NCBI GenBank assembly: GCA_030681515.1
Contig: JAUXSE010000052.1
Span: 1-64,000 of the forward strand
Direction of reading: 5' to 3'
DNA from: Geothrix sp.
GTDB taxonomy: Bacteria > Acidobacteriota > Holophagae > Holophagales > Holophagaceae
DNA: 64,000 nt
In this document: positions 57,440-64,000 of the stretch, in pieces
Layout: every line of letters starts with the position of its first letter
Position numbering within the stretch: position 1 is the stretch's first letter
The notes under the pieces: generated by a model
Databases searched by the model: none
What the model was told of the DNA's origin: nothing
Seen by the model: only the letters and a program-made list of their open reading frames with translations
Program-made: the position numbers and the translations under genes

Positions 57440-59482
57440 ATGTCCCACGGATCCGAACCCCAGGAGATCAAGGGTCTGCCCGCCAATGCGCGGCGCCCCC
57501 TGGAGCCCGGCGAAAGCTACATCCCCCTGGTGCCGCAGGATGGCGTGCCCGAGGTGACGCCCCGGGCCATCACCATGGGCCTCATCTTCTGCGCGATCTT
57601 CAGCATGGCCGCCGCCTACCTGGCCCTGAAGCTGGGCCAGGGCATCGAGGCCGCCATCCCCATCGCCATCCTGGCCGTGGGCCTCAGCCGCTTCTTCCCC
57701 CGCAAGAACACGATCCTGGAGAACGTCATCGTCCAGAGCATCGGCGCCAACAGCAGCCATGTGGTGAGCGGCGCGGCCTTCACCATCCCCGCCCTCTACA
57801 TCCTGGCCCAGACGCCCGGCAGCGGGGTTCCTTCCCCCACGCTGTGGCAGGTGGTGCTGGTGAGTTTCCTGGGCGGCTGCATCGGCATCCTCTTCCTCGT
57901 GCCCCTGCGCCATCACTTCATGGTGGAGAACCACGGCATCTTCCCCTGGCCCGAAGCCACCGCCACGGCGGAGATCCTCGTGACCGGCGAAAAGGCCGGC
58001 AACCAGGCCAGGGAACTGGCCGTGGCAGCCTTCATCGGCGCCGCCTATGACGGCATCACCTCCATCTTCCGGGGCATGGGCGAGTACCTGCGCCTGGAGC
58101 ATGTCTGGGTGGGCCGCGCGCTGCGCGAGAAGTTCATGTCCTTCAACTTCCTGAACAGCGCCGCCACCCTGGGCATCGGCTACATCATCGGCCTGAAGTA
58201 CTCCGCCGTGATCGCCGCCGGATCCTTCTTCAGCATGTTCGTGCTGGTGCCCCTCTTCCATGCCATTGGCCAGTACGTGCCCCTGATCGTGGCGCCCGGC
58301 ACGAAGCTCATCGCCGACATGACGCCGGAACAGGTCTTCTTCTCCTACATCCGCATCGTCGGGGTGGGCGCCATCGCCGGCGCGGGCATCATGGGCGTGG
58401 CCGCCTCCATGCCCAACATGATCCGCAGCATCATCAGCAACCTGAAGGCCCTCAAGAACCGCGATGCCGCCGCCGAATCCGCCGCTACGGCGCGCACGGA
58501 CCGCACCCTGGCGGGTTCCATGGTCGCCGTGGGCCTGGTCACCTGCACCGTGGGCACCCTGGCCTTCCTCAGCTTCGGCCTGGGCATCCAACAGGCCCTG
58601 GTGCCCGCGCTCGTCGCCACCGCCGTCGTCATGATCGTTTCCTTCTTCTTCGCCCCCGTGGCGGCCCGCGCCATCGCCACCATCGGCACCAACCCCATCA
58701 GTGGCATGACCATGCTGACCCTCGTCATCACCGGCGTGCTGATGCTCAAGCTGAACTTCACCGGCGGCTACGGCATGTTCCTCACCATGATGGTGGGCGG
58801 CATCGTCTGCACGGCCCTGGCGGCCTCCGGCGCCTTCAGCACCGACCTCAAGATCGGCCACTGGATCGGCGCCACACCGGCCCGCCAGATCGCCTGGAAG
58901 TTCGCGGGCACCCTCGTGGCGGCGATCTTCACGGGCATCGCCATGTGGCTCATGGCCAAGCAGGTGAACCTGGACGGCACCATGGCCCTGGGCACCTCCA
59001 TCCCCGCCCCCCAGGCCAGCGCCATGAAGGCCATCCTCGAAGGCATCTTCGGCACCGTGTCCATGCCCCTGCGCTGGTACGCCTTCGGCCTCGGCGTCAT
59101 GCTCTCCATCGTGCTGCGCATGGTGGAACTGCCGGCCCTGGGCTTCGCCCTCGGCATGTACCTGCCCATCGAGCTGAACACGCCCCTCTTCCTGGGTGGC
59201 CTGCTGTCCCACTGGGTGAACCGGCCCAAGCCAGGCACCAGCGAAGCCGACGCCAAGGCCCGCGAGAACCGCGGCGTCCTCATCGCCAGCGGCCTCATGG
59301 CCGGGGGCGCCATCATGGGCGTGGTGGCCAGCTTCATCAAACTGAAGTGGACCGAAGGCTTCCCCATCCTCAGCGTCCATCAAGCCGAAGGCGCCCTGGG
59401 CGAATGGCTCGGCCTCCTCGCCCTCATCGCCCTCTGCCTCTACGTCGTCGTCTACAGCCGGCGGGCCAAGGGCGAGGTTTAG
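57440..59482 (+). CDS. OPT-family oligopeptide transporter
   Basis: 680 aa with about 15 hydrophobic segments. TPRAITMGLIFCAIFSMAAAYLALKLGQGIEAAIPIAIL near the N-terminus, GANSSHVVSGAAFTIPALY, and NHGIFPWPEATATAEIL are typical of bacterial OPT proteins (peptide or metal-chelate uptake by cation symport). Next to four peptidases, so peptide uptake is the likely job. Confidence 0.94.
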   Translation: MSHGSEPQEIKGLPANARRPLEPGESYIPLVPQDGVPEVTPRAITMGLIFCAIFSMAAAYLALKLGQGIEAAIPIAILAVGLSRFFPRKNTILENVIVQSIGANSSHVVSGAAFTIPALYILAQTPGSGVPSPTLWQVVLVSFLGGCIGILFLVPLRHHFMVENHGIFPWPEATATAEILVTGEKAGNQARELAVAAFIGAAYDGITSIFRGMGEYLRLEHVWVGRALREKFMSFNFLNSAATLGIGYIIGLKYSAVIAAGSFFSMFVLVPLFHAIGQYVPLIVAPGTKLIADMTPEQVFFSYIRIVGVGAIAGAGIMGVAASMPNMIRSIISNLKALKNRDAAAESAATARTDRTLAGSMVAVGLVTCTVGTLAFLSFGLGIQQALVPALVATAVVMIVSFFFAPVAARAIATIGTNPISGMTMLTLVITGVLMLKLNFTGGYGMFLTMMVGGIVCTALAASGAFSTDLKIGHWIGATPARQIAWKFAGTLVAAIFTGIAMWLMAKQVNLDGTMALGTSIPAPQASAMKAILEGIFGTVSMPLRWYAFGLGVMLSIVLRMVELPALGFALGMYLPIELNTPLFLGGLLSHWVNRPKPGTSEADAKARENRGVLIASGLMAGGAIMGVVASFIKLKWTEGFPILSVHQAEGALGEWLGLLALIALCLYVVVYSRRAKGEV

Positions 59483-59509
59483 ATAGGGCCCGCCCCATCC
59501 TTCCGCCCC

Positions 59510-59538
59510 GCTCGGAATCGGCTTCGCCGATTCCGAGC
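59510..59538 (+). terminator. TTC-triloop hairpin after OPT gene
   Basis: 13-bp perfect stem GCTCGGAATCGGC / GCCGATTCCGAGC with loop TTC, followed by AAAGG. Longest member of the triloop hairpin class. Confidence 0.6.
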
Positions 59539-59598
59539 AAAGGGGTAAGGCTTTTCCACCCGCATCCACGTACCCTATACTCCACGCCGGAGAAGACC

Positions 59599-59892
59599 AT
59601 GAACCCGGAAACCACCCTCCAGCGGCTGCGCGAAGCCTTCCCGGGCCTTCGCCAGCGGTTTGCCGTGGCCCACCTGGGTGTCTTCGGCAGTGTGGCCCGG
59701 GGTACGGCAGGCCCAGATTCAGATGTGGACATTCTGGTGGAGTTCGAAGGTCCGGCCACCCTGGACGGCTTCATGGGCCTGAAAGAGGAACTGGAACAGC
59801 TGCTCGGCGTCCGGGTGGATCTTGCCACTCCGCGAAGCCTGCGGCCATCCCTGCTGGCCCTGGTGAAGAAAGACCTCCGCGATGTCGCGTGA
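59599..59892 (+). CDS. MntA-type nucleotidyltransferase antitoxin
   Basis: 97 aa. Minimal nucleotidyltransferase with GSVARG (30-35) and D42-V-D44 (SDVDILVEF). In MntA-HepT pairs the MNT protein adds AMP to a Tyr of HepT and so silences it. Overlaps the HEPN gene by 11 nt, as usual for this pair. Confidence 0.92.
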   Translation: MNPETTLQRLREAFPGLRQRFAVAHLGVFGSVARGTAGPDSDVDILVEFEGPATLDGFMGLKEELEQLLGVRVDLATPRSLRPSLLALVKKDLRDVA

Positions 59893-60223
59893 GCCCAGGG
59901 TCTACCTCGAGGACATCCTGGAGGCCATCCGCCGAGTGCGCCTGCTCACCGAGGGCATGGCTCCCATCCAATTCCGTGAGGATTGGCGGGCTCAGGATGC
60001 CACGCTCCGCAACCTGGAGATCCTGGGCGAAGCTGTCAAGCACCTGCCCGGGGCCCTGACGGCCCTTCATCCGGAGGTGGCCTGGAAGAATATCGCGGGC
60101 TTCCGCGACTTCCTGGCCCACGCCTACTTCGGGGTGGACGACCAAATCGTTTGGGACATCATCACCACCAAACTGGAACCCCTTGAAGCAGCGGTCCGAA
60201 CGCTGCTTCGCCACCATCCATAA
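59882..60223 (+). CDS. HepT-type HEPN toxin
   Basis: 113 aa, DUF86 family. RNase motif RX4HXY is intact (R75-DFLA-H80-A-Y82), with Tyr82 the expected AMP acceptor. The helical segment TLRNLEILGEAVKHLP is standard. With the preceding MntA gene it forms a type VII toxin-antitoxin pair. It lies next to the AT-rich cassette, which suggests an accessory region starts here. Confidence 0.92.
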   Translation: MSREPRVYLEDILEAIRRVRLLTEGMAPIQFREDWRAQDATLRNLEILGEAVKHLPGALTALHPEVAWKNIAGFRDFLAHAYFGVDDQIVWDIITTKLEPLEAAVRTLLRHHP

Positions 60224-60568
60224 TGCTGCCTGTGGCGCGGTGCGAACGGATGGGAACCCCCGGCTCATGTCCCAACCCGGGCGTGGGCCGCTCCTGCGAA
60301 GTTGGAATCTTTATGGCGTCGTTTCGGGGGTGGATAGCTGGACCAAGCCCCCACCGATGACCGCCGGGGCGGAGCCCTTTGGGTAATCCGCGCCCTCCGT
60401 GCCCATTGCAACCCGTCACCGGGGGCACCCGGAACGTTGCCAGATGACCACCTTCCGCATCTATGAAGACCGCCTAGTGGGATCGACCTGGACGGGTTGT
60501 GAGCGTGGGTGGCACCACCTCAAGGCCATTGCACCCTGATCAGTAAGGTGTGAGAGGAATCGAATGCC
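60224..60568. other. Gene-free junction between toxin-antitoxin pair and AT-rich cassette
   Basis: No supported gene. A 32-codon open frame (60444-60542, MTTFRIYEDRLVGSTWTGCE) has no ribosome site of note and may be a remnant. Composition changes from GC-rich to AT-rich at about 60580. Confidence 0.4.
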
Positions 60569-62647
60569 CTAGGCAGCCAGACTTAGCACCATTTCAACTT
60601 CGATACGACAAGCGCTCCGCCAATTTCTTCCTTCAATTGCAACAATGAGTTCTCTTAGGCGAGGCTCACGAATCTCAGCCAAATGTCTTCGAAGAGCTTC
60701 TTGAGCGATCAAATTATTCTGAGAAACAGCAACATGGAAATTAAATATATTTTTTAGGGCCTCGATGAATAAATCATTTGATACTGGAAGTTCATTAAGA
60801 ATTAGCTTGGCCTCTGCTATCCCCTCTCTATCATTCAAGAAATATACCGCAGCGCCTAATCTTACTACATTTTTATCGTGATCCGTTATAAGTTTGGTTT
60901 CTACAGCTTTTAATAATGCGGTTTTCGCATCTCGGTTACGATTCAACATAAGCATAAGTAAACCACGCACATATTCATTGATCCATTCATTAAAGGCATG
61001 GGATGTCCCCATGGGCCTCAATTCATCAATGGCTTGTTGGGGTCGACCTAACAGACCGGCGATTGCTGCACGAAACACACGCGCTTGTCGAGAAAAGGGT
61101 CTTTTTTGGACAACCTCATCTGCAAGACAGTACGCTTCCTTAAACTGGCTATTTCGCACCAGCACATTCGCTAATGCCAGCTTATAAATAATTAATGCTG
61201 ATTGATCGATTTGTTTATTATTCACCAATCCCTGGTAAAGACTGATTGATTCATCAAGCCTTCCCTCGAGCTTAGCGATTTCTGCTTGTCCAGCGAACAC
61301 ACGATCGGTGCCCATTCCACAGATAATCAGAGCTTCATATTCACGTCTTGCTTCATCCAATTTCCCCCAGCGTCGAATTGTATCTGCCTTTGCGCCTCGA
61401 ATAATTGGATCAAATTCACCATCTGGCACTGTGTCATAAATATCCAAAGCCTCCTGATACCGGCCCATATGTACATAGACATCGGCAAGGCTACTTGTTG
61501 CGATGTTGACTTCACCGAATTTTTTGGCCTCAGTCAAAAGGTTGATGGCCTCATCAAATTTTCCGACCCTCTTCATGTGGTCCGCCAATTGGACCAATGT
61601 CCAACCGTCAGAAGGCATCAATCGGACCGCAGTATCCAAGCATTCAAACTCGAAATCCGTTCTGAACATCTCAACACAATGAGTTGCGATGTTACATAGT
61701 GACTTGACGGCGTGAACCTCCCCTCCAGGAATCAAGGTTTGATCATTAATGAGCTCTTGGATATATGCCTTTGCGTTTTGCTCGCGACCTTCAGAGATGG
61801 CTATCACTATGCCATCAATTTGCTTCATGGCTTTGTGGAATTCTGAGTACGGCGAATATGATTTTACAGAATTCCACTTCCTTTTTCCATTCGCTGAACC
61901 ATCTCCATCTTCCTCTTCTGGTAAAAGTGTAAAATCTAATTTCGCAATATCTTCCGTGGGGAACAATTGCTTTGCAATTGCCTTTGCCAATCTAATTAGC
62001 GCCATTCTCTCAATCGGTGATGATAAACCTAGAGCAAGACTGTTCCATGCACGCTCTACAGCAGAAAAATCTTTCGCATTAATTGTGGTTACTATAGCGC
62101 CATTTTCTATTGCGGCACGCCATATCCCTGTCCGACCATCTTGGAATGGACTAAAGTCTTCTTCAGAGATCATGAGCCAACGCCCCACGATGCGTTGTAA
62201 TAAGGGTTGAGACTCTCTTACAAGATTCAACAAATTAGCCGTGGCACCAAATCCATCCGACAAAGCATCGTATATCAATGATTGCAATTTCTCAGTCCTC
62301 GCTAATGGAGCTTTCAACAAGTTTCGTCTGATAAAATTAACAACGCCATCAAGCTTGAGTGCATCTTCGATTTCCTCAAAAAGTTCAGCCTGAATTTCAC
62401 GCGGCATCCCAAATAATAATGACTCTATATTCAGCAGGCACCGATTGCATTTATATTTTAATATTGCAAGTACTAGCAAAGATTCTTCATCTGTTTCTTC
62501 TAAAATTTCCCAATCCTCGGCGATTCCACTTGCCATTGTCGCAAATTCTCGAGAAACAAGTGCCATTTCTGGAACATTAATGGATTTAGAATCATGCTCA
62601 TGATCAGTAAGAATAATCCCCGAAGAACTTGAAAAATATGCTTTCAC
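60569..62647 (-). CDS. AT-rich TPR-repeat protein of cassette
   Basis: About 692 aa from a GTG whose last two bases belong to the upstream stop (GTGA); a GTG 9 nt earlier is also open. Residues 1-260 are helical without recognised motif. A run of Asp/Glu follows (LLPEEEDGDGSANGKRK). From about 330 to 690 there are TPR-like repeats (AINLLTEAKKFGEVNIATSS, ADVYVHMGRYQEALDIYDTV, GKLDEARREYEAL, GRLDESISLYQGLVNNKQ). No enzyme motif, signal peptide or membrane helix. Codon use is much more AT-rich than neighbours, indicating horizontal transfer. Possibly the large sensor or scaffold of a two-gene defence or stress unit (inference). Confidence 0.8.
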   Translation of the reverse strand: MKAYFSSSSGIILTDHEHDSKSINVPEMALVSREFATMASGIAEDWEILEETDEESLLVLAILKYKCNRCLLNIESLLFGMPREIQAELFEEIEDALKLDGVVNFIRRNLLKAPLARTEKLQSLIYDALSDGFGATANLLNLVRESQPLLQRIVGRWLMISEEDFSPFQDGRTGIWRAAIENGAIVTTINAKDFSAVERAWNSLALGLSSPIERMALIRLAKAIAKQLFPTEDIAKLDFTLLPEEEDGDGSANGKRKWNSVKSYSPYSEFHKAMKQIDGIVIAISEGREQNAKAYIQELINDQTLIPGGEVHAVKSLCNIATHCVEMFRTDFEFECLDTAVRLMPSDGWTLVQLADHMKRVGKFDEAINLLTEAKKFGEVNIATSSLADVYVHMGRYQEALDIYDTVPDGEFDPIIRGAKADTIRRWGKLDEARREYEALIICGMGTDRVFAGQAEIAKLEGRLDESISLYQGLVNNKQIDQSALIIYKLALANVLVRNSQFKEAYCLADEVVQKRPFSRQARVFRAAIAGLLGRPQQAIDELRPMGTSHAFNEWINEYVRGLLMLMLNRNRDAKTALLKAVETKLITDHDKNVVRLGAAVYFLNDREGIAEAKLILNELPVSNDLFIEALKNIFNFHVAVSQNNLIAQEALRRHLAEIREPRLRELIVAIEGRNWRSACRIEVEMVLSLAA

Positions 62648-63537
62648 GGCTTCCACCCACTAGCCTTTCGCGGGGACCATAATTCTTTAATGATTTTGAT
62701 ATCCAATTTGTCGTGCCTACTAGTGCCATCATCAGTAAATTCTACATTTTGAACCGCATCTACATTGAACGAATCATAAATATGAGCTTCGATACAACGA
62801 TCTTCATCGCGAGTTTTCCCGTTATTCACTAATGAATTTCCCCACTCGGTTTTGCTAGAGCCTGATAACAAATTGGGTTCGAGTTTGGAAGCAACAAGTT
62901 CCTTTTTGTTTAGCCAACTACATTTATATCCGAAAGGAAAAGGCATATTCGCCCGAACATCAAGCTGGCGAAATAATAAATATGAATTTTCAAACAAAAA
63001 ACTTACTCTATTTTTCACTGCAATATCTTTAAGCTGAATATGCACTGGTCCATAATTTTTTAAACTATAATTATTTAATGATAAAACGCCGTATCGGATG
63101 TTTTTTGCGTAATGCCCAAATAATTTCCCACTGACTGCATGTCGCTCGGCATCAAAATCCTGCGGGGCTGGAGTCCTCACCCCACTCCCAACTAGGGCTT
63201 CATAGCCCTGATACAAAGTTCGGCGATCCTGAAAAAACGCCCGAGCGGCAAAAGCTGGAACCGCGATAATCACGTGAGATTCGCGTTCTACTGCATCAGC
63301 AAGGGCATCAAATTCACGGGAAACCCCCCTACTCTGGCTCGACTCTCGGGCGATACGAAATCGCTTAGCGACTTCCTCTGTTTGGATGAGTCTGTGTGCG
63401 GCGCGTACGTTAGGAGCACCTAGGTCGAAGCTGCATACTTGACAAAGTCGTAACGACTCCGAGCACTCTTCACCACAGTTTGAGCACCGCTCTGGTGTCG
63501 GTGGCGAAGGTGTCCGATTCAAGGTTATGGCGGTCAT
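62644..63537 (-). CDS. AT-rich N-terminal zinc-ribbon protein of cassette
   Basis: 297 aa. Zinc ribbon at the N-terminus: CSNC (C18, C21) and CQVC (C32, C35) with an extra C25. The middle and C-terminal part (HVIIAVPAFAARAFFQDRRT, LFGHYAKNIRYGVLSLNNYS, NYGPVHIQLKDIAVKNRVSF, FENSYLLF) is not recognised with confidence. The YGPVHIQLKD ... RVSF ... ENS pattern is faintly like ADP-ribosyltransferase-fold proteins, but that is a weak guess. Overlaps the TPR gene by 4 nt, so the two are one operon with the TPR protein second. Low GC like its partner. Confidence 0.75.
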   Translation of the reverse strand: MTAITLNRTPSPPTPERCSNCGEECSESLRLCQVCSFDLGAPNVRAAHRLIQTEEVAKRFRIARESSQSRGVSREFDALADAVERESHVIIAVPAFAARAFFQDRRTLYQGYEALVGSGVRTPAPQDFDAERHAVSGKLFGHYAKNIRYGVLSLNNYSLKNYGPVHIQLKDIAVKNRVSFLFENSYLLFRQLDVRANMPFPFGYKCSWLNKKELVASKLEPNLLSGSSKTEWGNSLVNNGKTRDEDRCIEAHIYDSFNVDAVQNVEFTDDGTSRHDKLDIKIIKELWSPRKASGWKP

Positions 63538-64000
63538 GGTGCGATTGTTCCCTGAGTGCCGGATGGTTTAGACATGACGACGAACCATTCAGTCTAGCCG
63601 GTGCCGCCCAAATTCCATAAACACGTTGATCGACGCCAACTGCTTGCTGCAGCCTAGCCAAAGCCTCTGCATCCTCGGCACAAACCCCTGCAGGCCAAAA
63701 GCCAACCACCAAGCGGATCTACATCACCTATGCCGAGGTTGCTGGGTTTGGTTTCCAGTTTTGTAGGGTGAGAAGAGAAAGCACTCGCACCGACGCATGT
63801 AGCGCTTGGCACCGCCTGTTCCCCACCCGGCCAGATCGCTGCGGGTGCTTGACGCTAGCTTGACCCTAAAAAAAGGCCACCTGGTCAAGGTGGATAGGGG
63901 ATTCAAAGGCCCCATTTTGATTTCTCGACGGGGTGGGTTTCCAAAAATGGGGTGAGATTCTGATCAAAGACGGGTTCCAGGCGAATGGCTATTGGGGTGT
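63538..64000. other. Right-end region without supported gene
   Basis: Should hold the promoter of the AT-rich operon. A minus-strand frame (VVGFWPAGVCAEDAEALARL, about 63600-63712) reads like the end of some protein but has no start context and may be a broken gene. The last about 150 bp (GGTCAAGGTGG, CCCCATTTTGATTTCTCGAC) look like mobile-element end sequence; unproven. Confidence 0.35.

Follow-up and report, generated by a model that had tools for sequence, protein, structure and literature searches.

Here, we describe a two-gene unit on the minus strand at positions 60569..63537 of a 64,000-nucleotide stretch of Geothrix sp. DNA (contig JAUXSE010000052.1; the whole stretch is referred to below as the window), in which a zinc-ribbon protein, encoded by gene 1, is paired with a partner protein, encoded by gene 2, that is built from a conserved N-terminal domain and an interchangeable tail. 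The pair is mobile and has spread horizontally, and with moderate confidence we read it as a two-gene conflict system, probably directed against phages, in which gene 1 would provide the effector, the N-terminal domain of the partner would hold it and the tail would act as a sensor. An earlier note on this DNA had picked out the two genes as A+T-rich, of foreign origin and unrecognised, and each of these points has held up: the G+C content of the pair is 0.43 vs 0.67 in the left flank, the genes lie in an insertion of about 5.26 kb, and neither the ribbon protein nor the N-terminal domain of the partner has a family in NCBIfam, Pfam or PADLOC.

The pairing is more than a chance adjacency because the same gene order was found again in a further seven genomes or records, namely Geothrix campi, four members of other Acidobacteriota families recovered by iterated profile searches (G331, G435, G488 and G489), the Rhizobium leguminosarum plasmid pRL9b4 and one IMG/VR phage contig. 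The ribbon gene comes first and the partner second in 8/8 pairs, with a spacing of -28 to +7 bp and nearly always an overlap, which answers the check on conserved pairing proposed in the earlier note and gives every pair the adjacency, fixed order and coupling by which conflict and toxin-antitoxin modules are recognised. The horizontal mobility and patchy spread associated with such modules are also found. Just two of the 47 Geothrix genomes carry the pair, the nearest carrier to the window being G. campi SG10, where it lies at a different locus behind topoisomerase I and where gene 1 is 63% and gene 2 57% identical to the window copies; in a sample of the phylum, 3/396 genomes were positive. 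In the class of G331, among about 149 genomes, the 4 that contain one protein are precisely the 4 that contain the other, with no orphans, a comparison that tests for orphans and not for recall, as the partner N-terminal profile was built with those four members. One plasmid among 72,556 records and one viral contig carry the family, and a search of 50,697 phage records gave no match to it. When each window protein was used singly as a query against plasmids, phages and viral contigs, nothing useful came back, and the family was recovered only once whole genomes of the phylum had been searched iteratively; matches to the zinc ribbon alone were set aside as noise.

Gene 1 (62644..63537, minus strand) encodes a protein of 297 amino acids, the putative effector, which belongs to an eight-member family defined by leave-one-out hidden Markov models (HMMs). 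Every one of the eight members is recovered with 167-286 bits (E 1e-48 to 1e-84 at Z=1e5), the highest of 200 shuffled controls reaching 6.4 bits, and the part of the protein without the ribbon still gives 149-255 bits (E 1e-43 to 1e-75). The CXXC-X10-CXXC zinc ribbon (63433..63486, minus strand) is spaced C18-x2-C21-x10-C32-x2-C35, and its four cysteines are invariant in the alignment of all eight members. It is followed by an uncharacterised domain at about residues 42-270 (62728..63414, minus strand), in which Y162, G163, R177, N184, G203, W208, K218 and E250 (window numbering) are also invariant and H252 is kept in 7/8 members, with Q in Rhizobium. The NYGPVHIQLKD and RVSF segments that had been reported alongside the ribbon are both present in the translation. 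Pfam returned nothing significant for this protein.

Gene 2 (60569..62656, minus strand) encodes 695 amino acids from its first GTG, which would give a 13-bp overlap with gene 1. The second GTG, at 62647, is the more likely start, since the relatives begin at the matching point (MKA, MDA or MQA), and it would yield a protein of 692 amino acids and the GTGA stop/start overlap at 62644..62647 that had been described beforehand. On this reading of the sequence, the overlap translationally couples the two genes. The N-terminal domain of the partner (residues 1-240; 61937..62656, minus strand) was recovered by leave-one-out HMM in six members with 32-124 bits, the best shuffle scoring 4.2, and profile-profile alignment with hhalign matches the Geothrix domain to the others over its length (E about 1e-6). 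An acidic linker (61871..61927, minus strand), with EEEDGDG at about residues 247-253, joins this constant domain to the tail, which in the window consists of tetratricopeptide repeats (TPRs; 60737..61849, minus strand). These repeats (TPR_16 E=5e-10) are the sole Pfam families found in the partner, so that both the acidic linker and the TPR repeats of the original description are where they were said to be.

It is the tail that distinguishes one partner from another. Four partners carry TPRs (window, G. campi, G435 and the phage contig), whose repeat regions share homology, whereas one has a sigma-like tail (G331), one a ribosomal protein S2 tail (Rhizobium), one a short tail (G489) and one none at all (G488). 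The G331 tail matches the sigma70-ECF model TIGR02937 over residues 289-502 (E=1e-14, 54.4 bits vs a cut-off of 42.9), the Pfam models for sigma region 4 and region 2 match it below their own cut-offs, and the best relative among plasmids is an open reading frame in Gemmatirosa that is sigma-like and stands alone. In the Rhizobium partner, residues 263-481 form an S2 protein (TIGR01011 E=8e-97; PF00318 positions 1-216/216, E=1.4e-96) that is 88-90% identical to Rhizobiaceae S2, and therefore the S2 surface has been kept. RefSeq calls only this S2 part of the pRL9b4 partner, as rpsB, and leaves the upstream 263 codons unannotated (L015:8824-10356); as the frame is open from the gene 1 overlap through to the end, the annotated rpsB start is probably wrong. 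In a tree of gene 1, short-tailed G489 joins the two TPR-tailed Geothrix members, and the S2-tailed member from Rhizobium is placed together with the TPR-tailed one from the phage contig (84/86), which means that the tails do not follow descent. The simplest history would be an ancestral TPR tail that was later replaced or lost. The earlier proposal of a TPR sensor or inhibitor thus survives in part: the TPR tail is there, but it is only one of several interchangeable tails, which alters what gene 2 is likely to do.

We propose that gene 1, with its zinc ribbon and possibly an ADP-ribosyltransferase-like domain, may be a toxic effector, which the constant N-terminal domain of the partner would bind and restrain while the interchangeable tail served as sensor. 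Sensing of the TPR type would involve the solenoid binding an invader protein or peptide; sensing of the bait type would use a copy of S2 or of a sigma factor to lure phage proteins directed against the ribosome or RNA polymerase. In either case, engagement of the tail would free or activate gene 1 and halt the growth of the infected cell. The more specific idea that the pair represents a new immune class with integrated decoys, in which the partner carries copies of ribosome or RNA-polymerase parts and phage attackers trip the effector, is tentative, and we regard it as possible rather than probable.

The same tails could instead serve as an address label, with the constant domain tethering gene 1 and the tail docking the pair to a machine (the 30S ribosome for S2, RNA polymerase for sigma and a client for TPR), so that gene 1 would modify a target close by. 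Here, the tail would choose the target and would not sense an attacker. Docking is what S2 and sigma naturally do, the S2 tail is almost complete and as close to real S2 as entry into the ribosome requires, and gene 1 is constant while the tail changes. We nevertheless consider this explanation unlikely, as the tail is absent in G488 and short in G489, so that docking is not essential, and as an S2 copy that neighbours an unrelated, effector-like gene on a plasmid fits a bait at least as well. That copy, the closest relative of the S2 tail, is an additional, unannotated S2 gene that Allorhizobium ampelinum carries on the conjugative plasmid pAtS4b (L074:4989-6501). It overlaps a gene of 206 codons that PADLOC matches weakly to 2TM/SLATT effectors (E=8.5e-06) and adjoins a gene for a TPR protein of 1305 amino acids whose PIN domain is that of the TPR-GreAB-C-PIN system; a DUF1612 (RHE_PE00001) gene lies near the S2 loci of both pRL9b4 and pAtS4b. 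Taken together, the two loci place plasmid-borne S2 copies twice beside effector-like genes of different families, which suggests, and does not prove, that S2 acts as bait or sensor. The pAtS4b locus is possibly a separate S2-containing defence operon.

What reaction gene 1 might catalyse is a narrower question. The order of its motifs, YG...R-[ST]...N-S...E-A-H-I, resembles that of DUF3626, where YG, R-[ST]-x-F, N/D-S and E-A-[QH]-[IV]-x-G follow one another. SopF is a Salmonella effector that carries DUF3626 (PF12294) and is an ADP-ribosyltransferase activated by a protein partner; a zinc ribbon and a partner gene, as in the window pair, are not described there. The DUF3626 HMM matched none of the six members scanned, and at E<=10 it matched nothing in the eight pair-carrying genomes or records, nor in control genomes; a search of Acidobacteriota for DUF3626 members with which to make a profile-profile comparison found none that reached the cut-off. 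No PDB sequence matched gene 1, and its AlphaFold model, from a 3-sequence alignment, had a predicted local distance difference test score (pLDDT) of 33, too poor to read the fold. The model of the partner N-terminal domain (pLDDT 52) was likewise too poor, and its fold search gave no match at E<=0.001. With the DUF3626 tests negative or unusable, the earlier hint of an ADP-ribosyltransferase fold was not confirmed and gene 1 is therefore not filed under that activity, which we judge from its motifs to be possible, a little short of an even call.

The surroundings of the pair also show its mobility. Homology with seven Geothrix congeners, all of which lack the insertion, ends at 59477 and resumes at about 64740, so that the inserted DNA occupies 59478..64000 of the window and runs on to contig position about 64739. 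Besides the ribbon/partner pair, it contains a remnant of a Y2-type transposase just past the window (contig 64127-64675) and, on the strand opposite to the pair, an MNT-HEPN toxin-antitoxin module that consists of an MNT nucleotidyltransferase (59599..59892, plus strand; NTP_transf_2, Pfam E=9e-18), the antitoxin-type partner of HepT, and a HepT-like HEPN ribonuclease, the toxin (59882..60223, plus strand; Pfam E=4e-27). G. campi has this site empty though it carries the pair elsewhere, and no tRNA integration site was found around either Geothrix copy. The site, which is flanked by genes for an OPT transporter and an epimerase, spans about 1 kb in many Geothrix and 2-20 kb with differing genes in others; a defence hotspot was considered here and dropped, with kinase, receptor, sigma-factor and metabolic genes present in other species. 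At 8/8 loci the pair has a lower G+C content than both flanks. The viral contig copy adjoins tail-completion and minor tail genes, and conflict-type neighbours are found elsewhere, namely a DUF4062 protein in G435 and GNAT-DUF1778 in Rhizobium. The former, 3 kb from the pair, is a protein of 1354 amino acids that combines DUF4062 with HATPase_c_4 and has weak PADLOC matches to Argonaute systems (L017:1745-5809).

A defence or toxin reading fits this mobility, the patchy distribution, the carriage on a phage contig and the neighbouring conflict genes. In its plainest form, the pair would be a toxin-antitoxin system that serves only element maintenance or persistence, gene 1 being the toxin and gene 2 an antitoxin made short-lived through its tail. 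Coupled genes in an AT-rich insertion that adjoins an MNT-HEPN pair would suit such a system, as would the LAA end of gene 2 (60569..60580 with the stop codon, minus strand), which hints, by its resemblance, at an ssrA/ClpX degron: a terminal AA is common to the four TPR-tailed partners, and in three of them the ending reads LAA. The other four partners, however, lack an AA ending, the partner is very large, its tails are varied and a toxin-first order is the less usual one in toxin-antitoxin pairs, and we consider this account quite improbable.

Much the same low standing goes to a role outside conflict, in which the pair would be a rare accessory signalling device that modifies or monitors parts of the ribosome and RNA polymerase under stress. 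The sigma-like and S2 tails do relate to transcription and translation, and the G489 copy lies beside a GAF histidine kinase and a response regulator that are convergent with it (L043:9504-12487), but the rarity within Geothrix and in the phylum sample, the phage carriage and the foreign composition are atypical of regulators.

Several observations weigh against the conflict reading that we prefer. Most pairs are surrounded by ordinary genes, and the Geothrix insertion site also houses ordinary genes in other species. The N-terminal domains of the two Geothrix partners score only 15-18 bits, a weak link by sequence alone. Finally, the S2 tail and the sigma tail are each known from one member, so that bait and docking are not distinguishable on these tails.

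A constant component that works with a variable partner is, as a general plan, already known from the EACC1-caspase systems (Kaur et al. 2020, eLife 52696), in which a 5' gene encodes a membrane-spanning constant domain and the partner bears a caspase-like peptidase. As in the window pair, two adjacent genes supply a component that stays constant and a protein whose set of domains varies, but the two systems share no family, and neither a peptidase nor a related family appeared in the profile scans of the pair. The TPR-GreAB-C-PIN system (PF20698) is alike by its Pfam name, which joins TPR proteins to a component of the transcription apparatus and to a domain of the toxin type; its toxin, however, is a PIN nuclease, and no sequence link to gene 1 or gene 2 was found. 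MNT-HEPN (HepT) modules share the coupled, mobile two-gene format, and one adjoins the pair in the window, yet their protein families are unrelated. A parallel to a bait lies in plant immunity, which uses integrated decoys, that is, bait copies of attacked host proteins. In bacteria, Panoptes is reported to provide decoy-based immunity, likewise with bait copies of an attacker's target (PMC12657218). The open-licence literature yielded no bacterial case in which the bait is ribosomal S2 or a sigma factor and no description of either protein or of the two-gene system; mentions of S29/Dap3 in PMC8195603 proved unrelated. PADLOC 2.0.0 gave no system family for P0001 and P0002, none for members P0007, P0014 and P0015, and one stray match (E=0.007) for P0013. 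Judged by these library and literature searches, what is new is both protein families, together with tails made of ribosomal S2 and of a sigma-like module.

If the decoy proposal is true, bacteria would share a trick of plant immunity, in which an immune switch is fused to decoys of the host proteins under attack, and the swapped tails would be a direct readout of the host machines that phages attack. Even without the decoy reading, the pair represents an undescribed mobile two-gene family whose putative effector has no assigned domain.
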